DNA of 64,000 bases from NCBI RefSeq assembly GCF_900114775.1, contig NZ_FOUE01000001.1, positions 992,001-1,056,000 on the forward strand, written 5' to 3'. The position numbers were made by a program, and so were the translations under genes. The notes under the pieces are model-generated. The model was not told the DNA's origin. It did no database searches and was given only the letters and a program-made list of their open reading frames with translations. This document shows, piece by piece, positions 9,269 through 26,527 of the stretch. The DNA comes from Marinobacter zhejiangensis. Lineage in GTDB: Bacteria; Pseudomonadota; Gammaproteobacteria; Pseudomonadales; Oleiphilaceae. Positions within the stretch are counted from its first letter, which is position 1. Each line of letters opens with the position of its first letter.

Positions 9269-11191
9269 TCAGTCGTTGCTGTTACCTTCCCAACGGGAAA
9301 CCTGCTCGCGATCCTGGGGCTGTTGCAGGACGCCCTGGTCCTGATTGGGCAGCGTTCCCTGGGGATCCCTGGTCAGCCCTTGGGCAACCATATCGCCGGT
9401 GCGTCGGGCTTCCTGCTCCTGACGGATATAGTCCAGACGTTCCTCCCGGTCGGCCCGCTTTTCTTCCCGCAGCTCGTCATTACGCAGGCGGAACTGGTTT
9501 TCCAGGTCGCCCACCACGCTGTTGATGAAACCATCGCAGTTGTTCAGAGACAGCAGGTAACGAGGTTGCTCCAGGTTGTACTGGCCGGATACCGCAAAGG
9601 TCGAACTGACCGCTTCAGTCGCCAGGGCAAAGTAGGTGGCGTCGAAGCTGAAAACGTCCTGTTCGGACGAAGCGCTGTGACGGTCGGCACCGCGGAAATG
9701 GGTGGCCCGCATGACGGTGCCTTCGCAGTGCAGGTCGAACAGGTTCGACTTGAAAAAGATCTCCGACCAGAACAGATGGCAGATGCGCGCGATGGAGCGG
9801 CCAAAGCCCAGCAGCAGCAACGCCGCCAGGATAATGGCAAACGTTCCGCCCGCCGGCACCAGTACCTGCTCGATGAAGGCGGTTGAGCTGCCGGAGCCCT
9901 TGCCCCCGAACTGCTGCGTCACGCTGAGGTGATCGAGCACGCGCTCGACGCCCAGCCACAGCAGCAGTGCGCCGATGAGCATTAATACCTGACCGGCCAC
10001 GGTGCCGCCGATGCGTGCCCAGCGCAGAACCTGCGGCTCAGGGATATCTTCGACGGTGGGCTGGATTTCGGCAATCAGGTCGCCATTGAACTGCTCGTTT
10101 TCACGGTTGGCTTCACCGGTATCGTTCTTGTCCAGATAGACCCGGTTCGGCAGTTCCAGCTGGCGCTTCTGCATCAGTACCAGATCGCGAAGGGTGGTGA
10201 AAATCTGGCGGGGGTGCAGATCAAAGCGCCAGCTGTTGTTGAGCTCGGAGCTGGAGGTGTTGATGCGTACCATACCAATACGGGCTTTCACCATCACTGC
10301 AGCCAGCACTGCGGTGATCAGGGCGCCAAAAATCGCCAGGGTCAGCAGGGCGCCGGTGTTGAACATCGGCTCCACCAAAGGCAGCCCTTCAGCCAGCCCG
10401 GCCTGGTCGCGGGACGACATGCTGTCCCAGAAGAACCCCCAACCCTGGGCAAACAGCACTGGGATGGCAATCGCACCGACCACCACCAGTGCCAGTCCGC
10501 CACTGTTGAAGCTATGCAGCTTGGTCATGTTGTTACGGGACAGCGGATTGCCCAGTTTGACCCAAACCAGGCCAAGGTAGATAAACAGGGCGGTTTGCAT
10601 CAACAACGACACAACGGTGGAGCCGACTTCGCCCCCGGTGCTGCCGGAAAACGCCATGTACATGACCAGGCTGGCCACCAGGAAAGCGGCAATGGCCACC
10701 AGGCTCTTGGTCAGCTTCATCGCAATCACCTGGGCCATATTGCGAATGGGCCAGGGGGTGACGATCAGGTTAGGGAACACCGAATGAACCGCGCGGGCGA
10801 ACCAGGTCTTGGGCTCAACAAAGGTCGGGTTCGACTTGCTCATCAGCATGTTGTGGAGGGTTTTGGCGGTGTAGAGGCTGGGCTCATGCTCAGCCACCGC
10901 TTCGCGGGCCACGTTCTGGGTCAGGGAGGCCGGGGCGGCACGGCCCACAAAGAAGCGCATCATCTGGAACAGGCCGCCGCCCAGGGCTTTCAGCCCGGCG
11001 CCAACAAACAGTCCGCCCAGAGCCAGGCTAACCCAGGCGCTGGTCTTGTCGGTGCTCAGCAGGGATTGAATCTGCAGCAACAGATATACGCCAATCGCGG
11101 TAACGATCAGGCCACGAATGGAACGCACTAGCCCCTCAAACCGGAACGGGTTGCGTATGTTGAGTTTCTGGGCACCGTACTCAAATGCCAT
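9269..11191 (-). CDS. multi-pass membrane protein of unknown function
   Basis: A 640-residue protein that I do not recognise. The start at 11191 (MAFEYGAQ) has AAGGAAAG 6 bases upstream; the longer frame adds an unlikely N-terminus across the promoter. Hydrophobic segments suggest about nine membrane helices: near 25-45, 55-75, 160-182, 195-215, 230-255, 285-310, 390-415 and 440-465 among others. The last roughly 170 residues are soluble, with FDLHCEGTVMRATHFRGAD and a charged coiled coil (LRNDELREEKRADREERLDYIR) near 575-600. It is monocistronic, divergent from the YchJ-like gene, and followed by a hairpin. No catalytic motif is evident. Confidence 0.8.
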   Translation of the reverse strand: MAFEYGAQKLNIRNPFRFEGLVRSIRGLIVTAIGVYLLLQIQSLLSTDKTSAWVSLALGGLFVGAGLKALGGGLFQMMRFFVGRAAPASLTQNVAREAVAEHEPSLYTAKTLHNMLMSKSNPTFVEPKTWFARAVHSVFPNLIVTPWPIRNMAQVIAMKLTKSLVAIAAFLVASLVMYMAFSGSTGGEVGSTVVSLLMQTALFIYLGLVWVKLGNPLSRNNMTKLHSFNSGGLALVVVGAIAIPVLFAQGWGFFWDSMSSRDQAGLAEGLPLVEPMFNTGALLTLAIFGALITAVLAAVMVKARIGMVRINTSSSELNNSWRFDLHPRQIFTTLRDLVLMQKRQLELPNRVYLDKNDTGEANRENEQFNGDLIAEIQPTVEDIPEPQVLRWARIGGTVAGQVLMLIGALLLWLGVERVLDHLSVTQQFGGKGSGSSTAFIEQVLVPAGGTFAIILAALLLLGFGRSIARICHLFWSEIFFKSNLFDLHCEGTVMRATHFRGADRHSASSEQDVFSFDATYFALATEAVSSTFAVSGQYNLEQPRYLLSLNNCDGFINSVVGDLENQFRLRNDELREEKRADREERLDYIRQEQEARRTGDMVAQGLTRDPQGTLPNQDQGVLQQPQDREQVSRWEGNSND

Positions 11192-11332
11192 GCTCGCTTT
11201 CCTTAAATAATAGGTAGATCTGAAAACGCAGAAGTCTAACGTGAAAACGTGACAGCGATCAGAGCTTTTTGAAAAATAATGCAAAATAGCAGTTAAGATT
11301 TGTCCTGCCTGCACCACCAAAGGAACCATACC

Positions 11333-11821: not shown

Positions 11822-11892
11822 TCCCGGAGGACGAGGGCGAGGGATTTACGCATAGGTTTTGATCAAAAAACGTGCTATTGTCCGCGCCCTTT

Positions 11893-11923
11893 TTGAGAAA
11901 TATCAAACGGGCTCGCGTACAAT
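11893..11923 (+). promoter_or_regulatory. possible sigma-70 promoter for the YgiQ-type gene
   Basis: TTGAGA (11893-11898) and TACAAT (11918-11923) with a 19-base spacer, about 50 bases upstream of the ATG at 11973. The spacer is longer than the usual 17, so the assignment is tentative. Confidence 0.35.
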
Positions 11924-11972
11924 AGCGTTTTATCTGCTGTACCAGCCATCATCAGGATTTCCGGTTACCCCC

Positions 11973-14177
<2,205 letters not shown>

Positions 14178-14183
14178 TGCGGG

Positions 14184-15227
14184 TCAGTCGATCAGTTGCT
14201 GCCACCAGCGGCTGATCGGATTCGGGAAGCGCGCGGTAAGCGGCAGGGCGTTGATGTGCCACTTCGCGGGTAGCGGCTCGGCCAGATGCACCTGCAGCAC
14301 CAGGGTGACCTGGTTGGGCTTGAACGACGAACGCATGGCGGGCGGTAGCGGCCGCACCTGAGAGGGTTCACCGGAAATCGCTGCGTCCAGCCACTGGCCG
14401 TCTGGCAGGTGCAGCTGCAGCGGTTGCCCGGGTTGAGCCAGGTCGCTGTACTTGGGCTCCAGGAACAGCTCAATGGTGGGCGTGCCGTCGGTGGTCAGTG
14501 TCATCATCAGGGTTCCCGGACCAACGTTCTCCCCCTCTACCACGTCAATAGACAGCACCCGGCCGTTCCGGGGAGCGTTGATGCCCAACCGGGCTAACCG
14601 TTCTTCGGCCACTTTGCGGGCCTGGCTGGCCTGGGCCAGTTGTTGTTGCAGGCCAGGTGATAGCTGGTTGGCACTTGCCTGGGTGCGGTCGAAATCCAAC
14701 AGGTCCAGCTCCGCCTTATCCCGCAGGTTTTCCGCTGCCAACAGTTCGCCCCGGGTTGCGGCACCGGCGGCGACCAACTGGCGCAGCCGGTTCACCCGGT
14801 TTTCGGCCCGGTTCAATAACTGCGCGAGGATCTGGCGTTGCTGTCCGCTGAGGGAACGCGAGCCTTCGCTGGTGAGGTTGATGGCGCCGGTTTCCGACAG
14901 CATCGAACGATAGGCCGGGTTATCCAGTGCGATCAGTGGCTGTCCGAGACTCACCGTCTCGTTAGTGCCGACCACGATCCGGTCAACCTGGGCGCTTTCC
15001 GGTGCCCGTATTTCCACCCGGGGCAACGACACCTGGGCGGGGGCGTCGAGCCGGATGGTCTCCAGGAACACCCGCCCCAGGAACCACAGGAACGGACTGG
15101 CCACCAGGGCCAGGATCAGGTACCAGCGCAGACGGTAGGCGGTGCGCTTGGCGGGGGCGTAGAGTACCCGCATACCGCCGTCTGATGCGGGTTCATCCCG
15201 TCTGGTATTTTTGAAACGAACCTTCAC
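14184..15227 (-). CDS. HlyD-family adaptor of a polysaccharide export operon
   Basis: A 347-residue membrane-fusion protein: a short cytoplasmic N-terminus, one membrane helix at about residues 29-50, a lipoyl-like half (VEIRAPESAQVDRIVVGTN), a long alpha-hairpin (about 125-220) and the second half (GRVLSIDVVEGENVGPG), then a barrel domain. The GTG start at 15227 overlaps the TGA of the upstream gene by four bases (GTGA), implying coupled translation. Adaptors of this kind bridge inner and outer membrane and normally pair with a TolC protein, which is exactly what the preceding gene encodes. No ABC or RND pump gene is present; the partner in the inner membrane is likely the GT2 synthase. Confidence 0.87.
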   Translation of the reverse strand: MKVRFKNTRRDEPASDGGMRVLYAPAKRTAYRLRWYLILALVASPFLWFLGRVFLETIRLDAPAQVSLPRVEIRAPESAQVDRIVVGTNETVSLGQPLIALDNPAYRSMLSETGAINLTSEGSRSLSGQQRQILAQLLNRAENRVNRLRQLVAAGAATRGELLAAENLRDKAELDLLDFDRTQASANQLSPGLQQQLAQASQARKVAEERLARLGINAPRNGRVLSIDVVEGENVGPGTLMMTLTTDGTPTIELFLEPKYSDLAQPGQPLQLHLPDGQWLDAAISGEPSQVRPLPPAMRSSFKPNQVTLVLQVHLAEPLPAKWHINALPLTARFPNPISRWWQQLID

Positions 15228-17311
15228 TCTGTCACTCCCATGGGGTCGGTCGTGGTGATGGATGACCAGTCCTGCCATTCCAGTGCCCACAGGCCCTGTT
15301 GCTGCAGCTCTCCCTGCCATTGCCGGGAAAGCGCGGATAACTCGCGGGCAGAGCGGCCCTGCCAGCTTTCAACCGGGCTCAGTGTTGGCTCGGCACTCTG
15401 TGCCAGGCTGAACTGCATGTCCGGCCAGGCGGTGGTGATGGACTGCACCAGTTGTGCACGCCGGGTCAGGTTGGTGGTGTAGATCATCAGCGACACCTGC
15501 TTGATACCCAGGGCCGGGAGCCGGCAGGGGATGCAGGTTGTCCCGTCAGTTTGCGGCTCGAACCAGCGGTAGTGGCTGGCAATGGACAGGGGCAGATCGG
15601 TCGATTCGGACACCGCTTGCAGTGTTGCGAGCCAGGCTTCGAGCCGCTGTTGGGGCACCGGCCAGCCCAATTGCTCCACTTCCAGGTCCAGGTGGAGGCC
15701 GTCGAAGGGCAGGGAATCGAAACGCCTGACCAGGTCTACCAGCCGGGGGCGGCCTTGCTCGCTGATCCAGTCCGGATCACCCAGTAACAGGCTAACCCTT
15801 AAATTGCTGCGGTGGGCTTCGGACAACAGTTGCCGTAGCCGGGACGAGGTCTCGGCGGCGTTCACCTGGGCGGCGTCGAGTCCGAGATAGACATGGTTGA
15901 AACCGAGCGCGACCAACTGGTCCAGTACCCTGGCGCGGCTGGCGGGGGCCAGCAGTTCGCGGCTGTTCCAGAGGTATACCCGTTGCTGCCAGGCGGTCGG
16001 TGGCGCAGTGGCGGTGAGCGGTGTTGGTATGGTTATCGCTTTGGCGGTAAAGACGCTATCCCAGGGAGCGCCGGTATCTTCCTGGATCGCCACCATGGTG
16101 GCGGACTGGGCCGCCAGCGCGCGCCAGCGATCATAAAGCTCAAAGTAACTCTCGATCAGGTCCAGGCGCGCCGATTCAATCCCGAAAAAAGTGCGGTCTC
16201 CGGTGATGGGCTGGCGGGCAAGGGTTTCCCGGTACTCCCGCAGGTGCTGACTGCGGCGGTCCTGGCGGTAATCAATCTCATCCCGCAGTTCCTGGTAGGT
16301 CATGACCTCGTGTTCGACATTGTCCAACAGTTGGTAGCGGGTAGCCTGGAGCTGTTCCTGGGCGGAGTAATAGCGGTGCTTGCGGGCGTCGCCGCGGGTG
16401 CTGCCGGAGAAACTGGTCAGTGGCATTTCCAGGCGAATACCGGCCACCAGGCTGTAGCCGGTATCGGAGTTGTCGTCGCGACGATTGAAATGGTTGGTGA
16501 CTTCAAACCCGGCTTCGAGGTCGTCATACCAGCTGCTGTCGGCGGTGTCCCGGGTGAGGGAAACTTCGGCGCGGGCACGACTCATCGCCGGGTGGCTTTC
16601 CAGCAGCGAGCCCCAGTCCACAGGGTCGGCCAGTTCCGGCAGGGCCGGCGGTTCGGCCCGGTCGACGTCTCTAGTGTTCAGACCGGCCAGGCGGGCCAGC
16701 CTTTGGCGAACCTGGTGCTGGGTACGCCCCGCCCGGGTACAGTGGCGCTCCAGGCCAGTCCACCGGTTTTGCAGGAGCTGGCGCTGGGATTCCCTCAGGT
16801 CGCCGGCCCGGTAGCGCTCGTCGATGGTGTTGGTGATTGCGCGGGACTGTCGGCTCAGGTCCTGGCAGGTAGTGGCAAGCGCCGTCCAGTACCACCAGTC
16901 GTAATAGCTGGTACGAATTTGGCGGCGATGCTCATGGCCGAGAAGGGTTCGTTCATGCTCAAGCTGGACACTGGTCAGCTCACTGAAGGCTTCGGCTTCG
17001 CTGTTGTTGCGGTGGGAGCCAAACAATGGATGGCTCAGACCGATGTAGCCGCCATAGCCGGTGTACTTGTCGAGTCCCCGTGGCCCGTCCAGTTCGTTGA
17101 AATAGCCAGCATCGGCTCCGGCAATGGCACGCCAGCCGCCGCTGCCGGCAAGCTCACGGGTTTCGGCACCCTGCTGCTGGATACGGGCATTCAGGGCATT
17201 AACGGTGGGTGTATCCGACGCCAGCTGGAGCAGTTCGGTCAGGGTGATGGCCCTGACAGGAAGGGCGGCCAGGATGAGCAAACCGGCGACCAGGAGCTTT
17301 CGGGTACGCAT
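15224..17311 (-). CDS. TolC-type outer-membrane protein fused to a TIM-barrel glycosidase-like domain
   Basis: A 695-residue protein. Residues 1-21 form a signal peptide (ALPVRA cut). Residues about 22-420 have the TolC/OMF pattern: an N-terminal LTELLQLASDTPTVNALNAR, two long helical repeats and a beta-strand segment (GYSLVAGIRLEMPLTS near 285-300). After a Pro/Thr-rich linker (about 425-440), residues about 441-690 look like a TIM-barrel glycosidase-like domain: YLWNSRELL, LGFNHVYLGLD, LRVSLLLGDPDW and FDGLHLDLEVEQLG, with acidic residues at about D542, E544 and E546 after a strand in the catalytic position. TolC proteins are usually about 450 residues, so the extra 250 are a fusion. The ATG at 17311 overlaps the synthase stop by one base. 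The exact glycosidase family cannot be assigned by eye. Confidence 0.8.
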   Translation of the reverse strand: MRTRKLLVAGLLILAALPVRAITLTELLQLASDTPTVNALNARIQQQGAETRELAGSGGWRAIAGADAGYFNELDGPRGLDKYTGYGGYIGLSHPLFGSHRNNSEAEAFSELTSVQLEHERTLLGHEHRRQIRTSYYDWWYWTALATTCQDLSRQSRAITNTIDERYRAGDLRESQRQLLQNRWTGLERHCTRAGRTQHQVRQRLARLAGLNTRDVDRAEPPALPELADPVDWGSLLESHPAMSRARAEVSLTRDTADSSWYDDLEAGFEVTNHFNRRDDNSDTGYSLVAGIRLEMPLTSFSGSTRGDARKHRYYSAQEQLQATRYQLLDNVEHEVMTYQELRDEIDYRQDRRSQHLREYRETLARQPITGDRTFFGIESARLDLIESYFELYDRWRALAAQSATMVAIQEDTGAPWDSVFTAKAITIPTPLTATAPPTAWQQRVYLWNSRELLAPASRARVLDQLVALGFNHVYLGLDAAQVNAAETSSRLRQLLSEAHRSNLRVSLLLGDPDWISEQGRPRLVDLVRRFDSLPFDGLHLDLEVEQLGWPVPQQRLEAWLATLQAVSESTDLPLSIASHYRWFEPQTDGTTCIPCRLPALGIKQVSLMIYTTNLTRRAQLVQSITTAWPDMQFSLAQSAEPTLSPVESWQGRSARELSALSRQWQGELQQQGLWALEWQDWSSITTTDPMGVTE

Positions 17312-18639
17312 CAGAATTTCTTCCCCCGTTTGATGACCCACCAGGGCGCCATGCTGCTTTCTTCGTGGCCCCGACGCAGGGCTTCGTTCAGTGTGCAGAC
17401 CACACCCCAGCAGCGGATAACCAGCATAAACACCGGGAACAAAGGCACCAGGGGCAGTAGCTTCAGGTCTTCCCGTGGGCGCTCGGAGACCAGTAGCAGG
17501 CAGGCCAGGTAGAGCGTCAGAGTGATCGCGAAGTAGACCGAGTAGATCAGCACGGCCACGAAGGCGATGGTTGATAACGGCATCAGGATGAAGCCGACCA
17601 CCAGGTAGCTGACAATCAGGAACGGCATCACCAGCTGAAAGAACAGGCCGGTGACCAGAGTCATCAGGAAGTCGGGCCAGCCCATCAGGCGAGGTGACAG
17701 GTTGCGCTGGTGTTTGCGCACAAACAGGAAGTACAGGTCACCATCCCAGCGCAATCTCTGCATCAGGAACTGGCGAAACGTCGTGGGAACGTCGGTATGA
17801 CCGATGGCCCTGGGTTCGAACGGAATCCGGAAGTGGTGGCGACCGTAGTAGCTCTTGATCCGCAGGGTAATGTCGAGATCTTCCGCGGTATGGGTGTCCC
17901 AGCCACCAATACGGGTCAGCAGCTTCCGCCGGAATGCACCAAAGGCCCCGGAAATGTTGTTGATGGTATTCCACTCCCCAAGACCGATCTTGGACATCTG
18001 GATCGACAGCAGGTATTCCAGGGCCTGGATTCTGGCGACCAGGGAGTCATTGCGGTTGCGCACCCGCAGGTTACCGGAAACAGCCGGAACGTTGGGGTCG
18101 GCAAAGTGCTGCACGATCTGGCTGACCATGTCGTTATCGAACGAGGTATCGCCGTCCAGCGCCAGCACGATGTCGCCCGTGGCATGGTGAAGGCCTGCAT
18201 TCAGCGATGACACCCGGCCACCGCGCTGCCACTTGGCCAGCGGTCGGATGGTGCGGCGCGGGTGCAAATGCGGGTCGACGCGGAAACCTTCAATCGCGGC
18301 CAGGGTCTCACGGTTAATGCTGGCGCCATCGACCACCGGGATGATTTCCAGAACCCCCGGGTAGAGCTGTTCGCACAGGCTCTTCAGGGTAATGACGGTC
18401 TCGGCCCCTTCGCTGTAACAGGTCACAATGCACGAGACTTTGGGGGTGTAGAGCCTGCTCGGTGGGATTCTGTGCCGTTCTCGCAGCTTCCAGCGCAGTA
18501 CGCCCACAAAGATCAGCAGGTACACCGGGAGTTCCAGCAGAATAAAGAAAGGAAACAGCCGCAGCAGCCATTCGGACAGGCCACCGTTACCGAAAATCTC
18601 ACCGGCAATCTGTGATGCGGCTTGTACGATCGTTTCCAC
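17311..18639 (-). CDS. processive GT2 glycosyltransferase, membrane-bound polysaccharide synthase
   Basis: A 442-residue family 2 glycosyltransferase. A membrane helix at about residues 25-50 precedes the catalytic domain, and about four helices follow at 305-430. Synthase motifs are in order: VVDGA (D104), the UDP-binding LDGD (D162-D164), TAED (E253, D254) and QRLRW (294-298), the last typical of processive enzymes such as cellulose, hyaluronan and chitin-type synthases. No PilZ domain is fused. The GTG start at 18639 overlaps the stop of the TackOD1 gene by one base. Substrate sugar is not predictable. It should make and push a polysaccharide across the inner membrane for the HlyD/TolC pair. 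Confidence 0.88.
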   Translation of the reverse strand: METIVQAASQIAGEIFGNGGLSEWLLRLFPFFILLELPVYLLIFVGVLRWKLRERHRIPPSRLYTPKVSCIVTCYSEGAETVITLKSLCEQLYPGVLEIIPVVDGASINRETLAAIEGFRVDPHLHPRRTIRPLAKWQRGGRVSSLNAGLHHATGDIVLALDGDTSFDNDMVSQIVQHFADPNVPAVSGNLRVRNRNDSLVARIQALEYLLSIQMSKIGLGEWNTINNISGAFGAFRRKLLTRIGGWDTHTAEDLDITLRIKSYYGRHHFRIPFEPRAIGHTDVPTTFRQFLMQRLRWDGDLYFLFVRKHQRNLSPRLMGWPDFLMTLVTGLFFQLVMPFLIVSYLVVGFILMPLSTIAFVAVLIYSVYFAITLTLYLACLLLVSERPREDLKLLPLVPLFPVFMLVIRCWGVVCTLNEALRRGHEESSMAPWWVIKRGKKF

Positions 18640-20030
18640 TACGCCCCCAGCTTACCGGACAGTCTGGCCATGATCAGTTCAGCGTCCTCCTGGGGCAGCA
18701 TCTCCATTGGCAGGGTGTAGCCATCGACCACGACGCGGAAACCACTGTGTTCGGCGATCGGCAGGAGTTGAGCCAGTTCCAGTATCCGGTTCCGCAGGGC
18801 TTCACGGCCCTCAATGTCGGTGTTGGGTAACAACAGCCAGAGCAGGTTTTCCTTCGAGCGGGTGCAGCGATCGGTTTCGCGAATGGCTTCGCGGATGCGG
18901 CTGACCAGAGTGTCGATGGCGGCGATGCCACCAGCTTCACCCACCTGTTCCATGGCGGCCTCCAGGTTCTCAAACTTGATGGCCATCAGTGAGGTGGCGT
19001 GAGACTTGTACCGGTGGGTCAGTTGGATCTGCCAGTTCAGGAGTGTCCTGAAGGCGCCGTTGTTGATCAGGTTGAGCTGATCAAAATGATCGTCCCGGAG
19101 GCTGGAGGTCAGGCCCTGGCGGCACTTCAGACGACCAAGTTCGGTCAGGCTGTAGCGCCGGATCTCCCGAACCTTGAGGTCTTCCGGTGCATTGATGTGC
19201 TGGCAGTCCAGACAGTGCGCTTCCACCAGCGGCTCTTCGAAAAACGCATTGCAACTGCGGCAGCGCAGGTTTTCCAGGGGCCGGTCGTAATCGCTGCCAA
19301 TGTGCCGCAGTCGGGTCAGGCAGTTCGGGCATTCCAGGGTGCCGTTCTTCAGAAAGCTTTCCTGAGGTGCAACATGGCCACAGGTAAAACAATGCAGCGA
19401 TGGCTGGCGGGTGATATCGATGGTCTGGCAGTCCGGGCACACGTCGATGTAGTTCAGACGAGTCGAGGAGCATTCCCGGCACTGCCGCAGCCGGTCCAGA
19501 AGTTCACCTTCCGCAAACAGGCCTTGTTGCTGCATCAGTTGCAGCCAGCTGAACGCATTGATGGTGTCGTCCTCGGTGAGGACATCCACCAGAGGGTAGT
19601 AGTAGGGAATGGCCTGACGAGGCGCGCGGACCGGAACCAGCGCGCTGCGGGGCCGGCTCCACAACCAGGCCAGCACACGCTCTTCGGTTGTGGTGGATGG
19701 CTGGCCACGGTTAAAGCTGTGCAGGCGTTGCTGCCAAAGCCTGTACAACGGCAGGACAGCATCCGTTGCCTCAGGTAGCATGCCATCGCCCAGCTGCTCG
19801 AACAGCGGGCCATTGGCAGGCCTTGCGGAAAAAATCAGGTTCAGCGGATAGATCGATTTGCGGAGTTCGATAATGGCCCGTTCCAGGCCTTCCTGCGGCA
19901 GGTCGATCACAATAACATCGCTGTTTGCCTGGGTGAGCTGCGCAACGGTTTCGTATCGCTGCCAGCCGTCAGGGATCTGGAAATCGGTGGTGTGCGGTGC
20001 CAGGAAAGCGATGTTGGGGGAATTCGTCAT
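18639..20030 (-). CDS. TackOD1 zinc-ribbon protein with degenerate GGDEF domain
   Basis: A 463-residue cytoplasmic protein in three parts. Residues 1-100 look like a receiver-type alpha/beta fold without the phosphate-accepting motif. Residues about 181-290 hold three paired CxxC units (C184/C187/C198/C201; C214/C217/C234/C237; C257/C260/C273/C276), the pattern of the Thaumarchaeal output domain TackOD1. Residues about 335-460 follow the GGDEF fold, but the catalytic loop reads RSKENLLWL, so it cannot be an active cyclase. It is the first gene of the polysaccharide operon and probably its regulatory subunit. Binding of c-di-GMP or zinc is inference. The ATG at 20030 is the first in frame. Confidence 0.78.
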   Translation of the reverse strand: MTNSPNIAFLAPHTTDFQIPDGWQRYETVAQLTQANSDVIVIDLPQEGLERAIIELRKSIYPLNLIFSARPANGPLFEQLGDGMLPEATDAVLPLYRLWQQRLHSFNRGQPSTTTEERVLAWLWSRPRSALVPVRAPRQAIPYYYPLVDVLTEDDTINAFSWLQLMQQQGLFAEGELLDRLRQCRECSSTRLNYIDVCPDCQTIDITRQPSLHCFTCGHVAPQESFLKNGTLECPNCLTRLRHIGSDYDRPLENLRCRSCNAFFEEPLVEAHCLDCQHINAPEDLKVREIRRYSLTELGRLKCRQGLTSSLRDDHFDQLNLINNGAFRTLLNWQIQLTHRYKSHATSLMAIKFENLEAAMEQVGEAGGIAAIDTLVSRIREAIRETDRCTRSKENLLWLLLPNTDIEGREALRNRILELAQLLPIAEHSGFRVVVDGYTLPMEMLPQEDAELIMARLSGKLGA

Positions 20031-20572: not shown

Positions 20573-22489
20573 ATGCTCAGAAATTTAAACCGGGAATCGT
20601 GGGTTCGCGTCTTGCTCTGGGGCGGCTGGGTTTGTGTGGCTTTGGTGACCACGCTTGGCGGGTACACTCTGGATCAGCAATACCGTGAGCGTTATCACCA
20701 GGAACGGCGGGCGGATGTGACCCAGCAGCTGGCGATCCTGCGAGCGCAGCTTGAAGGGACCGTTGGTAAGAATCTTCAGGTGGTGCAGGGGCTGGTGGCG
20801 GTGGTTTCGGCAGACCCGTCCATTACCCAGCAACGCTTTGGCGCCATCGCCAGCGAGATTCTGGCGCAGAAACAACAGCTCCGGAATATCGGCGCAGCAC
20901 CGGATATGGTGATCCGGATGATCTACCCGTTGACCGGCAATGAGGCGGCCCTGGGGCTGGATTACCGCGCCAATGCCCATCAGTGGCCGAAGGTCCGCCA
21001 GGCCGCTGAAAGTGGGGAGCTGGTGCTCGATGGCCCGCTGACCCTGGTTCAGGGCGGACGTGGGTTTATCGGTCGGGTTCCGGTGTTCAGTCATCGCCTG
21101 AATGGCGATGGGCGTTATTTGTGGGGCCTGGTGTCAGCGGTGATTGACGTCGATGCCCTGTATCAGGAAGCCGGGATCTACGATGTTTCCGATCTCTTGA
21201 TTGCTCTGCGCAAAGTGGAGTCGGATGGTCAGCCCGGCGCTGTTTTCTACGGTAGCGACGAACTGTTCGGCCAGGCACCGGTGACCATGCCGGTTGCGGT
21301 TGGCGGTGGCAGCTGGCAGTTGGCGGCCGTGCCTGCTGATGGGTGGCGGCCCCTTCCTCCCGATGTGGTCTCATTTCGTGGCCTGCTGTTCGCCGCCGCA
21401 GCCCTGATCCTGCTGCCGGGGCTGGGTATGGCCTTGTCGATCCAGCGTGAGCGCAAGAGCCAGCGACGGCTGCAGTCCCTGTTTGAATTGTCGCCCCTGG
21501 GGATGGCGCTGGTGGACGCCCAGAGCGGCCGCTTCCTGAGCGTCAATGCCTCCCTGTGTGCCATGACGGCAATGGATGTTGGTCAGCTTCATGCGGTGAC
21601 CGTGAGTCGTATCCTTCCACCGCCCTTGCCCTGGGCCGATTTGGGGGGTGAGCCGCGTTTTGGTCCGCTAGAAAGCCTGTGCCTGAGTGCCGATGGGCAC
21701 AGTATGCCGATTCTGCTGGCGGGTGCCCGGGTGCAGGAAGCGCGCAATCGCGAATTGGTCTGGCTGGCCTTGCAGGACATTTCCGAGCAGAAACGAGTGG
21801 AACAGATGAAGAATGAATTCATCTCCACGGTCAGCCACGAATTGCGCACGCCACTGACGTCGATTTCGGGGGCGCTCAAACTGACCTCCGAAGGCATGGT
21901 GGGAGAACTGCCCGACAAAGCCCGGGAAATGGTCGGAATTGCCCTGAAAAACAGCGAACGACTGGCGCAGCTGATCAATGACCTGCTGGATATGGACAAG
22001 CTGGTCTCCGGCAAGCTGGGGTTCAATATTCGTCCGCTGGCCCTGGCGCCGATGATGAAAACCAGCCTGGAGAACCTGGAGGTCTACGCCCACAATCACG
22101 ACGTCGTGCTGGAGTACAGCAACCAGTCCAGCCGCTGTTCGGTGTTGGCGGATGATCTGCGGTTCCTGCAGGTGATGGATAACCTGGTGTCCAATGCCAT
22201 CAAGTTTTCTCCGGCGGGCGGCACCGTGCGGGTAAGCAGCGAGCTGCTGGATGGGCAGGTCCAGATTTCAGTCTGTGATCAGGGCGATGGCATTCCAGAG
22301 TCGTTTCATAGTCGGGTGTTCGAGAAATTTGCCCAGGCCGACGGCTCGGATCGTCGGGTCAAAGGCGGCACCGGGCTGGGGCTGGCCATCTCACGGGGGT
22401 TGTTGCTCCACATGAACGGCAGTATCCGGTTTGATTCCGAGCCGGGTAAGGGGACCTGTTTCTACGTGACCCTGCCTCGGGCGGACTGA
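20573..22489 (+). CDS. CHASE-PAS sensor histidine kinase
   Basis: A 638-residue membrane sensor. A first membrane helix at about residues 10-30 and a second at 269-291 enclose a periplasmic CHASE domain (about 45-215; VVQGLVAVVSADPSITQQRFG, IRMIYPLTGNEAALGLDY). A PAS domain (about 300-405) and a HisKA/HATPase module follow, with the phosphorylated His at 422 (STVSHELRTPLTS), the N box near 545 and GTGLGLAIS. No receiver is fused and no response regulator is adjacent. Its HisKA region is nearly identical at the DNA level to that of the hybrid kinase at 23660-26527. The kinase sits before the lone TRAP binding protein. Confidence 0.9.
   Translation: MLRNLNRESWVRVLLWGGWVCVALVTTLGGYTLDQQYRERYHQERRADVTQQLAILRAQLEGTVGKNLQVVQGLVAVVSADPSITQQRFGAIASEILAQKQQLRNIGAAPDMVIRMIYPLTGNEAALGLDYRANAHQWPKVRQAAESGELVLDGPLTLVQGGRGFIGRVPVFSHRLNGDGRYLWGLVSAVIDVDALYQEAGIYDVSDLLIALRKVESDGQPGAVFYGSDELFGQAPVTMPVAVGGGSWQLAAVPADGWRPLPPDVVSFRGLLFAAAALILLPGLGMALSIQRERKSQRRLQSLFELSPLGMALVDAQSGRFLSVNASLCAMTAMDVGQLHAVTVSRILPPPLPWADLGGEPRFGPLESLCLSADGHSMPILLAGARVQEARNRELVWLALQDISEQKRVEQMKNEFISTVSHELRTPLTSISGALKLTSEGMVGELPDKAREMVGIALKNSERLAQLINDLLDMDKLVSGKLGFNIRPLALAPMMKTSLENLEVYAHNHDVVLEYSNQSSRCSVLADDLRFLQVMDNLVSNAIKFSPAGGTVRVSSELLDGQVQISVCDQGDGIPESFHSRVFEKFAQADGSDRRVKGGTGLGLAISRGLLLHMNGSIRFDSEPGKGTCFYVTLPRAD
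21818..21874 (+). repeat. HisKA-encoding repeat, copy 1 (inverted partner at 24725-24781)
   Basis: About 57 bases encoding FISTVSHELRTPLTSISGA. The reverse complement of 24725-24781 matches with about five differences, including an unbroken 26-base identity. The two copies lie in opposite orientation, 2.9 kb apart. Confidence 0.7.
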
Positions 22490-23659: not shown

Positions 23660-26527
23660 TTAACGGTCGCTGGGATGGGACGTCAGGGTTTCCAGTGTGG
23701 ACAGCAGTATGTCGATGGAGGCCTGGGACTTGGTGAAGGTTGCCTCCACCAGGTCCAGCTCCTGACGGGACAGGTGTTGTCCGGACAGAATGACCACGTT
23801 GGCCTGGGGTTGCTGTCGGTAGATCTCCGGTAGCAACTGCCAGCCACTGCCGTCGGGTAGCCCGATATCCAGCAATACGAGTTGATACCGGCGCGGGTGC
23901 TGCAACTGCTCCCGTGCGGCTGCAAGGCTGGTGGCAAAGTGCAACTCGAAACGGTTGCCCGCCGCCACCCGCATCACATCAATAAGGTCAGCGTCATCTT
24001 CGACATGCAGGACCAACGGGCGTGTTGGCGACGTGTCGATGGTGGCAGGCGCTAATACCTGACGGGGTGCCGGTTCGGTGGGTGCTGGGATAGACGTTGT
24101 GGCACTAGCCCCGGTGGCCAACGGAAGGCGGATATAGAACCGGGTACCCGCGGTCGGCGACGTCTCAAAGGTGACCCACCCCCCCATCTGTTCAATCAGC
24201 TCACGGGTAATGGCCAGGCCCAGGCCGGTGCCGCCTTTCTGGCGAGCATCGGAGCTGTCGGCCTGGGCGAACTTCTGGAATATCCGATGGTGGAAATGGT
24301 CGGGAATACCTGCGCCCTGGTCAATCACCGCGATGGTCAACTCGTCACCGTCCTGTTCTGCCCGAACCTCGACCGGACAATCGTCCGGGGAAAATTTGAT
24401 GGCATTGGACAGCAGGTTGGACAGGGCCTGGATCAACCGGACACGGTCCACGCTGACGTCGATGTCAGGGATGGGGCCCATCAGCTCGACCGTGACGCCC
24501 CGTTTCCGGCCATAGGGCTGGTTCTGCTCGATGGCCTCGTCCAGCAGTGGCGGGAGTGCGCAGGTTTCGACGTGAAAATGCAGGTGCCCGGAAGCGATCT
24601 TCTGGATATCTAACAGGTCGTTGACCAGCAGGATCAGCCGCTTGGCGTTGTTTTCCGCAATGTTCAGCATCTGCCTCATGGAGTCCGGAACATGGCCAAG
24701 GGTGCCGTTGCGGACCAATGCCAGGGCGCCGGAAATCGACGTCAGTGGGGTGCGCAATTCGTGGCTGACCGTGGAAATGAACTCGTCCTTGAGGGTGTCC
24801 ATACGCTGGCGCTCGGAGATGTCGAGGGCGATGCCCAGGTAACCGGTCAGCTCGTTGTTGCCATCGCGAATGGCGGTCACCATGAGCGACACCGGTATAC
24901 GCTGACCATTTTTGTGGATGTAGGTCCAGTTCCTGATCTCAGCACCGCCGTCCGCCGTTACGCCGATGAGCGCGGTGAAATCCTCGATAGGCTTGTTGAG
25001 TCGCTGCCCCAATTCCTGTGCCCGGGCAGTGACCTCGTCGGCATCGTGGAACGCCAGTGGCGTGCATTTTCCCACCAGTTCATCGGCGTGATAGCCCAAC
25101 AGGCGTTCGGCGCCGTGGTTAAAAACGGAAATCGTGCCGCGGGTGTCGGTGGCGATAATCGAAATCTCGGTGGCCGAGTCCAGCACACTGTTGAGCAGGG
25201 TATTGGCATGACTGAGCTCCGTGGTTTTTTCCGCCACGGTCTGGCGCAGGGTGTCCTGGCTGCGATTGATTTCCCGAAATGCGTTGGTCAGGGCGCGAGT
25301 GACTTCTGACAGGGTGTGCGACAGCTCGTTGTATTCCGCCAGCATGCTGTCAGGCAGCTGCGGCAGTTCGCCGGAAGTGATCTGGCGGGTGAGCCCGTGG
25401 CTGCTGCGGGTCAGCTTGGCCAGGGGGCGGGTCAGCAAAAAACTGAACAGGTAGGCGGCAGGGACACCCAGCATGATGATGACAAACAGGATGGCCAGCA
25501 ATTGCAGCTGGTTGGTCCGGAGTTGCTCAACCACCGGGGCGGCCGGGTACTCCACCAGTACCTGGTCAACGCCGGGTACGTTCTGAACCGTAGCGGTTGT
25601 GAGGTAGCTGCCCTGCTGCCACTGCTTCAAGGCGTGTCTTTCCTGATACGGCTGCCACAGGCTGAGTCCATTGGCGCGTGTGGCGATGTCGCCGCCTTCT
25701 TCGGCCAAGCTGCGAATGGCGCCGATGCTGGCGATCACCTGCCCCTGATTACCCAGCAGGGCAATGCCAAAGTCGGGGCTGGTTTGGGCGATGGCCAGCT
25801 TGCGTGTCAGTGGTGCTTCAGACTGCTCCGGCTCTTGCTCCAATAAATGGGTGACGGTACGGGCATGTTCCTGAAGCTGCCTGGCGGTGAACTGCTCGTG
25901 GATCACCTGGTCACGGGCGCCTTCAACCACGATCGGCAGGGTGCCGGCGAGGGCAATCCCCAGGAGCAGGGAAATGAACAGCACCTCGGAAAACTCAAAC
26001 CGTGATGAACGTAGGGGGCGCATGGTGCCGGATCGTGCCAGGGCTTCCAGGGCCAGCACCAGTATCACTGCCAGCAAGGCGTTCAAGACGCCGTTCAGTG
26101 GCTGCTTCAGGGCGATCAGTGCCGTGGTGGCCGAGTCATTGTCCAGTCCGAAGTAATAGAAGATGCCCACCAGCGGCATGCCGGCGACCACCCAGTACAG
26201 CATGTCCGCGAGCACCAAGTTGAGGTTCCAGTAGCGGTGGCAGAGGCCGACACAGAGGGCTTCCAGCGAGAAAATCAGCAGGGCATAGGGGTGTCCCCAC
26301 AAAAACAGGGTGACCAGACTGCCGGATACCGCCACCAGTACCGCGGCCGGTGTGCCCAGCAGCATAACGGCGGTCATGGTGGCGATGGAGCCAAAGATCA
26401 GGTAGACATCGAACAGCAGCGGAATGTGGGTCAGGTTCAGCAGCGGCGCGATGGCTACCAATAACAGGGTCAGGATCAGGCGTTGGCCTTTACTGCCTAC
26501 TCTGGTGGTGCTTCCAGTCATGGTCAA
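23660..26527 (-). CDS. MASE-type hybrid sensor histidine kinase with receiver
   Basis: A 955-residue hybrid kinase. Residues about 15-165 contain five or six membrane helices of a MASE1-like sensor; a further helix at 180-200 and one at 338-362 enclose a periplasmic segment. HAMP (about 362-418), a coiled linker, PAS (about 440-570), HisKA with H589 (STVSHELRTPLTS), HATPase (about 690-805; GTGLGLAIT) and a C-terminal receiver (about 838-950) with phosphoacceptor D887 (LLDIGLPDG) follow. Two ATGs, at 26527 and 26521, are possible starts. It converges on the TRAP binding-protein gene, and its kinase core is a close paralogue of the CHASE kinase. Confidence 0.9.
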   Translation of the reverse strand: MTMTGSTTRVGSKGQRLILTLLLVAIAPLLNLTHIPLLFDVYLIFGSIATMTAVMLLGTPAAVLVAVSGSLVTLFLWGHPYALLIFSLEALCVGLCHRYWNLNLVLADMLYWVVAGMPLVGIFYYFGLDNDSATTALIALKQPLNGVLNALLAVILVLALEALARSGTMRPLRSSRFEFSEVLFISLLLGIALAGTLPIVVEGARDQVIHEQFTARQLQEHARTVTHLLEQEPEQSEAPLTRKLAIAQTSPDFGIALLGNQGQVIASIGAIRSLAEEGGDIATRANGLSLWQPYQERHALKQWQQGSYLTTATVQNVPGVDQVLVEYPAAPVVEQLRTNQLQLLAILFVIIMLGVPAAYLFSFLLTRPLAKLTRSSHGLTRQITSGELPQLPDSMLAEYNELSHTLSEVTRALTNAFREINRSQDTLRQTVAEKTTELSHANTLLNSVLDSATEISIIATDTRGTISVFNHGAERLLGYHADELVGKCTPLAFHDADEVTARAQELGQRLNKPIEDFTALIGVTADGGAEIRNWTYIHKNGQRIPVSLMVTAIRDGNNELTGYLGIALDISERQRMDTLKDEFISTVSHELRTPLTSISGALALVRNGTLGHVPDSMRQMLNIAENNAKRLILLVNDLLDIQKIASGHLHFHVETCALPPLLDEAIEQNQPYGRKRGVTVELMGPIPDIDVSVDRVRLIQALSNLLSNAIKFSPDDCPVEVRAEQDGDELTIAVIDQGAGIPDHFHHRIFQKFAQADSSDARQKGGTGLGLAITRELIEQMGGWVTFETSPTAGTRFYIRLPLATGASATTSIPAPTEPAPRQVLAPATIDTSPTRPLVLHVEDDADLIDVMRVAAGNRFELHFATSLAAAREQLQHPRRYQLVLLDIGLPDGSGWQLLPEIYRQQPQANVVILSGQHLSRQELDLVEATFTKSQASIDILLSTLETLTSHPSDR
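24725..24781 (-). repeat. HisKA-encoding repeat, copy 2
   Basis: Inverted partner of 21818-21874 inside the hybrid kinase gene; both encode the phosphoacceptor-His helix. Confidence 0.7.

Follow-up and report, generated by a model that had tools for sequence, protein, structure and literature searches.

A four-gene operon of Marinobacter zhejiangensis encoding a PgaC-like synthase, an HlyD–TolC-type conduit and a TackOD1–degenerate GGDEF regulator: a candidate pump-less exopolysaccharide system

Introduction

Synthase-dependent exopolysaccharide systems, as outlined in PMC7112194, where five such polymers are counted, include an inner-membrane processive glycosyltransferase, a subunit that binds cyclic di-GMP (c-di-GMP), a periplasmic modification enzyme, and a periplasmic tetratricopeptide repeat (TPR) domain with an outer-membrane pore. 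In this study, we analysed four overlapping genes at positions 14184-20030 of a 64,000-nucleotide stretch of the Marinobacter zhejiangensis genome (contig NZ_FOUE01000001.1, positions 992,001 to 1,056,000; hereafter the window), which encode a TackOD1–degenerate GGDEF protein, a glycosyltransferase family 2 (GT2) synthase, an outer-membrane factor of the OEP/TolC type fused to a glycosidase-like barrel, and an HlyD-family adaptor. The processive glycosyltransferase of the published outline is present here too, whereas its TPR-porin is replaced by HlyD and OEP/TolC. With moderate confidence, we propose that these genes encode a self-contained exopolysaccharide machine, in which a synthase gated by c-di-GMP would feed an HlyD–TolC conduit directly and a hydrolase would be fused to the duct.

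A pump-less GT2–HlyD–TolC route has been proposed for cyanobacterial cellulose (XcsAB–TolC; PMC12430437, citing Maeda et al. 2018), in a model that the same text presents as lacking experimental validation, with its use by operon-organised clusters as an open question. As described there, XcsAB–TolC resembles the present locus in having a GT2, an HlyD-like adaptor, a TolC-like channel and a hydrolase partner (XcsC), and no pump. It differs in its PilZ-bearing cellulose synthase and in its layout, with scattered genes in T. vulcanus and TolC outside the operon, whereas the window has a PgaC-like GT2 without PilZ, a TackOD1–GGDEF regulator and an OEP joined to another kind of hydrolase-like domain, with every gene in a single operon. 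BgsBA, in which a GT2 and the HlyD-like BgsB make a mixed-linkage beta-glucan in Sinorhizobium/Rhizobium, likewise has a GT2 adjoining an HlyD-like protein, and its output is activated by c-di-GMP (PMC9495663). However, c-di-GMP is bound there by the C-terminus of the synthase, the operon comprises two genes, and the account of BgsBA in that article describes no OEP, hydrolase or TackOD1 partner.

Single parts of the locus also have described counterparts. The degenerate GGDEF domain of PelD binds c-di-GMP via RxxD, and the Pel system and the window share an operon-encoded degenerate GGDEF protein in which this motif is intact; as portrayed in PMC7112168, PelD consists of GAF and GGDEF, whereas in the window regulator GGDEF is preceded by a receiver-like region and TackOD1. 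The joining of a periplasmic hydrolase to an outer-membrane pore is seen in the Zymomonas BcsZC fusion, although BcsC there is a TPR-porin and the window pore is an OEP/TolC duct (PMC7112194). The function of TackOD1 was called obscure in the account given by the paper naming the domain (PMC5847659).

The initial annotation of the window took no system of this makeup to have been described, a view that is not supported, given the XcsAB–TolC proposal (PMC12430437) and BgsBA (PMC9495663). A published homologous cluster, which that annotation had named as grounds for rejecting its proposal, was not found, and neither was a description of the four-gene system, in a literature search by titles and abstract starts that left subscription papers and preprints mostly outside; the transport principle, by contrast, has already been proposed in the literature. 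The locus combines a pump-less HlyD–OEP exit for a candidate synthase-dependent system with a new regulator architecture and a new duct–hydrolase fusion, all in one operon.

Results

The four genes lie on the minus strand and are transcribed in the order TackOD1–GGDEF, GT2, OEP–glycosidase and HlyD, with overlaps of 1, 1 and 4 bases. Their features are as follows.

18639..20030, minus strand: TackOD1–degenerate GGDEF protein, 463 residues, with a receiver-like N-terminal region, TackOD1 at 112-295 and the GGDEF fold at 317-425
17311..18639, minus strand: GT2 polysaccharide synthase, PgaC-like, 442 residues, GTG start at 18639
15224..17311, minus strand: OEP/TolC outer-membrane factor with C-terminal glycosidase-like TIM barrel, 695 residues from the most likely start, ATG 17311
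15227..16039, minus strand: glycosidase-like TIM-barrel domain (modelled alone), with D552, E554 and E651 in the numbering of the 705-residue open reading frame (ORF)
14184..15227, minus strand: HlyD-family periplasmic adaptor, 347 residues from the most likely start, GTG 15227

The TAG stop of the regulator gene (18641-18639) has one base in common with the GTG start of the GT2 gene (18639), as does the TGA stop of the latter (17313-17311) with the ATG of the OEP gene (17311), and the TGA stop of the OEP gene (15226-15224) overlaps the GTG of the HlyD gene (15227) by four bases. These starts shorten the OEP–glycosidase protein from the 705 residues of the ORF listing and, judging from the alignment, correct the listed HlyD start, because K2 and F5 are conserved among aligned homologues (77/80 and 79/80, respectively). 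Pfam matched TackOD1 (PF18551, E 7.7e-67), GGDEF (PF00990, weakly, 2.1e-7), GT2 (PF13632, 9.9e-23), OEP (4.4e-11) and HlyD_3 (3.2e-9), so that the sequence and Pfam bear out both the overlapping layout and the four-gene makeup initially assigned.

Searches with the glycosidase domain detected it in five genomes of the class (274 searched) and six of the order (293 searched), the window's own genome being included in both. The locus counts below are based on the best 80 of 106 relatives from a scan of named genomes with this domain; L016-L018 and L021-L023 were taken as repeats of named loci and excluded from the homologue-alignment and pump-probe counts. All four genes were present on one strand in 73 of the best 80 relatives, and 66 of the 80 showed the window's gene order and the OEP–glycosidase fusion. 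Because this set of genes keeps its order in distant genomes, the module is more than a chance arrangement, and the search for the four-gene neighbourhood that had been suggested as a check thus found it to be recurrent. Two loci are ordered glycosidase–HlyD–TackOD1–GT2, one truncated by a contig end, and five metagenome-assembled genomes of Synechococcus/Synechococcaceae carry a stand-alone glycosidase domain with no OEP found. Four of the remaining seven loci (L031, L040, L068 and L071) are interrupted by contig ends; in Stutzerimonas L037, L047 and L057, no GT2, HlyD or TackOD1 gene was found beside the OEP–glycosidase gene.

A TackOD1 search of 299 Pseudomonadota genomes matched 12 genomes, 11 of them above the cut-off, giving 12 above-cut-off loci; the match in G632, below the cut-off and with no GT2 found alongside, was excluded. 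GT2 adjoins TackOD1 in all 12 loci and an HlyD-like gene does so in 11, the twelfth being a fragment at a contig end. By this adjacency, TackOD1, GT2 and HlyD form a core. It counts against the proposed machine that searches of the loci from Plesiomonas, Photobacterium and Rhodobacteraceae, and of the sampled L123, L124, L126, L130 and L131, found no OEP–glycosidase gene with this core; the OEP–glycosidase protein belongs to the group containing the window and not to the core. In a quick FastTree phylogeny of the GT2 sequences, rooted with PgaC, without L019 and L083 (broken frames) and with L124, L130 and L131 not included, the 76 sequences from glycosidase-domain loci cluster with a support of 0.998, and five core-only loci (L105, L106, L107, L123 and L126) form a neighbouring group (0.889). 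A branch of L125, L127, L128 and L129 is more distant and lies outside both groups; a glycosidase-type domain is found upstream in L125 and, weakly, in L128. No constant extra partner gene emerged from the neighbour survey, a weak one since its length-based ORF choice takes wrong frames in GC-rich genomes, and flanks were common only within genera.

Two core loci have neighbours of their own. In L105, on a Rhodobacteraceae plasmid (M382; 8911-12283), a galE epimerase gene directly follows the TackOD1–GT2–HlyD core, which may hint at a galactose or N-acetylgalactosamine donor. In L131 (G791:C15, 9155-12567), the TackOD1–GT2–HlyD cluster has beside it a BcsA-like GT2 and a further ORF that weakly resembles HlyD; the arrangement looks like two adjoining pump-less systems.

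The GT2 motifs D104, D162xD164, E253-D254 and Q294xxR297-W298 are invariant in all 77 sequences aligned. The D, DxD, ED and QxxRW motifs are marks of processive GT2 enzymes, and together with the Pfam matches they bear out the assignment as a processive-type synthase. PgaC_IcaA was the best NCBIfam model (157 bits), followed by NodC (93), with CelA at 18, and hhalign gave E 1.4e-25 for PgaC versus 6e-6 for BcsA. The likeness to the Pga system of poly-beta-1,6-N-acetylglucosamine (GlcNAc) thus lies in PgaC as the closest named synthase and in the TIM-barrel hydrolase part of PgaB, which has a similar fold, whereas PgaA, PgaB and PgaD were the best probe for no ORF (E up to 1e-8) in the 96 loci probed; nor was BcsC for any ORF of these loci. 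The polymer would most likely be based on GlcNAc, a step that is itself weak and that follows from this nearness to PgaC and from the GlcNAc activity of several of the closest barrel folds.

These comparisons bear on two other products. The same machine could make a cellulose-like or mixed-linkage glucan as a relative of XcsAB–TolC or BgsBA, with the barrel acting as a glucanase; GT2 plus HlyD is, as far as those systems are described in the articles cited above, the makeup of both XcsAB and BgsBA, XcsAB also has a hydrolase partner, and the BcsA-like GT2 of L131 lies less than 300 bases from the module. However, in the comparison with PgaC and BcsA the window GT2 is far closer to the former, no PilZ domain was found by Pfam at E up to 1, and BcsZ was the best probe for no ORF in the 96 loci; we regard a glucan product as unlikely. 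Alternatively, the product could be a short oligosaccharide or signal, such as a NodC-like chitooligomer, instead of a matrix polymer, with the conduit as its exporter and the barrel setting its size, given that NodC is the second-best model and that a fused hydrolase could determine chain length. PgaC nevertheless outscores NodC, and the neighbour survey, made by eye and with no search aimed at NodA/NodB-type partners, revealed only genus-shared flanks; this is the least probable of the readings considered here, and a very improbable one.

The OEP/TolC protein begins with a signal peptide (by eye) and carries a C-terminal extension of ~270 residues, which, modelled alone, forms a confident TIM barrel (predicted local distance difference test (pLDDT) 92.4). 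Its carboxylates D, E and a second E, which are D542, E544 and E641 when counted from the ATG, are invariant in 83 of 83 sequences. No known Pfam family could be assigned: the best E-value, 0.0057, came from an unrelated family (58 members searched; 25 of 37 families shown), and GH18 was rejected at the sequence level, since PF00704 matches 2 of 58 members with a best E of 0.016. The GH18 motif is DxxDxDxE, and one D is replaced by H in the window motif DGLHLDLE. A profile search against the sequences of solved structures gave weak matches, 25 at E 0.32-1.8, of which the top two were unrelated (YfiB and PksC) and most others were chitinases or chitinase-like. The first two Foldseek matches were GH18 chitinases (E 2.5e-7 for 3ian and 6.9e-7). 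In fold alignments, the nearest structures were Cwp19 (Z 18.9, root-mean-square deviation (rmsd) 3.8, 239 aligned residues), a D. hafniense chitinase (Z 17.6, rmsd 4.2, 242), GH18 6k7z (Z 17.3, rmsd 3.8, 229), PgaB (Z 17.1, rmsd 3.9, 236) and O-GlcNAcase (Z 16.6, rmsd 3.8, 231), with beta-galactosidases and mannosidases also near 16.6. The modelled fold is therefore of the GH18-type TIM-barrel kind, yet other barrels score alike, and a GlcNAc substrate is a lean taken from the model, not a finding. With no convincing Pfam match and no profile similarity to PgaB, the fused domain is treated here as an unnamed family. OEP termini face the periplasm, and the domain should thus sit at the duct entrance; the BcsZ/PelA-like place originally suggested for it is plausible on the model, with the invariant carboxylates adding support.

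Variants of this protein were also encountered. The free-standing domain of a Synechococcus locus (L042) begins with a lipoprotein-like signal (by eye), and the OEP–glycosidase protein of L018 (7933-10443) has an additional AMIN domain at its N-terminus (PF11741, E 5.1e-13). In Stutzerimonas L021 (6146-10236), whose contig is as long as that of L047, and L057 (5534-9613), the OEP–glycosidase gene is followed by that for a protein of 645-650 residues, which is a polysaccharide deacetylase in L021 (PF01522, E 1.8e-11) and was judged likewise from the sequence start in L057. As an operon partner the deacetylase is only a lead, GT2, HlyD and TackOD1 not having been found in these two loci.

The HlyD adaptor has a conserved segment, L151-x6-T158-x2-E161 (L151 in 79/80 and S/T158 in 80/80 homologues), under a pattern relaxed once a stricter one had failed to match any E. 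coli reference. Its L/S-T spacing matches the segment R-x3-L-x6-S of E. coli MacA, which we take to be the TolC-docking tip of the alpha-hairpin, and L151–E161 is accordingly read, from the sequence, as a hairpin tip. The full MacA-type motif was ruled out, its R not being conserved.

Four E. coli proteins (AcrB, MsbA, EmrB and MacB) served as BLAST probes for pumps in the 96 loci. No relative of AcrB, MsbA or EmrB was found within 2 kb of the module in any of the 96, a count weakened by the presence of 2-kb flanks on both sides in only 75 of 95 module loci. Within the same distance, the MacB probe matched an ATPase in six Nitrosomonas-type loci; judging from its sequence, this is an ABC-F protein lacking a membrane domain. 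Beyond 2 kb, matches occurred for AcrB in 3 loci, EmrB in 2, MsbA in 3 and MacB in 20, indicating that the probes work. HlyD and OEP families usually partner ABC, RND or MFS pumps, and these ATPases and distant matches would fit a view in which HlyD and OEP serve a pump encoded elsewhere, for type I secretion or efflux, while the GT2 either has no part in this or modifies another target. Against this view stand the ABC-F reading, the lack of AcrB, MsbA and EmrB relatives near the module and the continued pairing of GT2 with HlyD even where the OEP–glycosidase gene was not found, and we give it little credence. A pump consistently co-occurring with the HlyD/TolC pair, which the initial annotation had set beforehand as evidence against itself, was not found with the four probes, and its claim that no ABC or RND pump stands beside the pair has held up within these limits.

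The cyclase motif GG[DE][EF] was found in none of 76 regulators, and RxxD occupies the I-site position in 70 of the 76, a set that includes L019 despite its broken frame; in the window regulator, the motif is R384 and D387. The description of the GGDEF domain as degenerate is thereby confirmed. Solved GGDEF domains, several of which had c-di-GMP bound, were matched by the model of the regulator (pLDDT 91), whose secondary structure indicates a receiver-like alpha/beta N-terminal region. From the retained motif and by analogy, the regulator probably binds c-di-GMP at the I-site.

Among 100 sampled genomes of the genus, the GT2 family was detected in two, including the window's own (1010 and 671 bits; the next match had 92), and the operon is sporadic in the genus. 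In the second operon-bearing genome (G853), the operon lies in a genomic context different from that of the window. A complete operon is carried by pKAM329_3, a 29-kb mobilizable plasmid of Aeromonas caviae; on pKAM345_3, of similar size, the OEP–glycosidase and HlyD genes were seen and the GT2 reaches the record end. In the GT2 tree, the pKAM329_3 sequence groups with two Stutzerimonas sequences (0.974) and the window sequence with Vreelandella (0.962). Of 13 genomes checked for the YgiQ-like gene that flanks the operon downstream, it was found in two, the window's own and G292; the 19 kb surrounding it in G292 yielded no operon gene. A comparison of insertion sites in the sister species (13 genomes) yielded no clean empty site. 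In our reading, the operon is transferred horizontally as one piece.

The operon is flanked upstream by a divergent CHASE-histidine kinase gene (20573-22489) and downstream by a convergent gene of the YgiQ-like radical SAM type (11859-14177, a name given on inspection of the translated sequence). A further histidine kinase is encoded upstream at 23660-26527, and in G853 sequences with 42-49% identity to the window kinase cores also lie upstream of the operon (L144, 11675-14472). A membrane-type protein of 686 residues, encoded at 9269-11329 on the minus strand, gave no hit in Pfam up to E 1. A defence system was rejected as a reading, PADLOC having returned no hits.

Discussion

In the machine that we favour, the GT2 would polymerise a beta-linked chain from a cytosolic nucleotide sugar and extrude it through its own membrane channel, as its family leads us to expect. 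HlyD would span the periplasm and join the synthase to the OEP/TolC duct, and polymerisation itself would drive export, so that a pump would be unnecessary. The TIM barrel at the periplasmic end of the duct would trim or clear chains at the entrance, like BcsZ, PelA or PgaB, and the TackOD1–GGDEF protein, having lost the cyclase motif, would license the synthase via c-di-GMP, as PelD does for Pel.

Several observations weigh against this proposal. The 157 bits obtained with PgaC_IcaA fall far below the curated (equivalog) cut-off of 422. RxxD is absent from six of the 76 regulators, one of them the broken-frame L019, and in the Rhodobacteraceae variant L105 RxxD was not seen and GGDEF was not found by Pfam. 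The arginine of the MacA-type tip is mostly Q in the HlyD homologues (R in 5/80). For the barrel, isocitrate lyase, a non-glycosidase barrel, was third in Foldseek, many TIM barrels fit almost equally well, and hhalign to the hydrolase part of PgaB (GH153), represented by a single E. coli sequence, gave a probability of 0.1.

A broader reading is that the operon represents a distinct pump-less secretion class, in which a polymerisation-driven synthase–HlyD–TolC duct with its own hydrolase, governed by a new TackOD1 c-di-GMP receptor dedicated to one GT2 family, is borne on plasmids; we advance this tentatively, at slightly less than even chances. Every part, from the synthase and its regulator to the adaptor, the duct and the hydrolase-like domain, is encoded in one operon, which also occurs in culture-collection strains, among them Vreelandella utahensis DSM 3051 (L028) and Stutzerimonas degradans DSM 50238 (L029). 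With all parts in one operon and such strains included, the pump-less route is testable by clean deletions.

The presence of the full set on a 29-kb mobilizable plasmid means that a matrix polymer could be gained in a single step. The operon also gives a context to TackOD1, obscure in the paper that named it (PMC5847659): the domain is now tied to a polysaccharide synthase, lying beside a GT2 in 12 of 12 above-cut-off Pseudomonadota loci. If the broader reading is true, TackOD1 would be a coupling module that links a second messenger to a membrane synthase.

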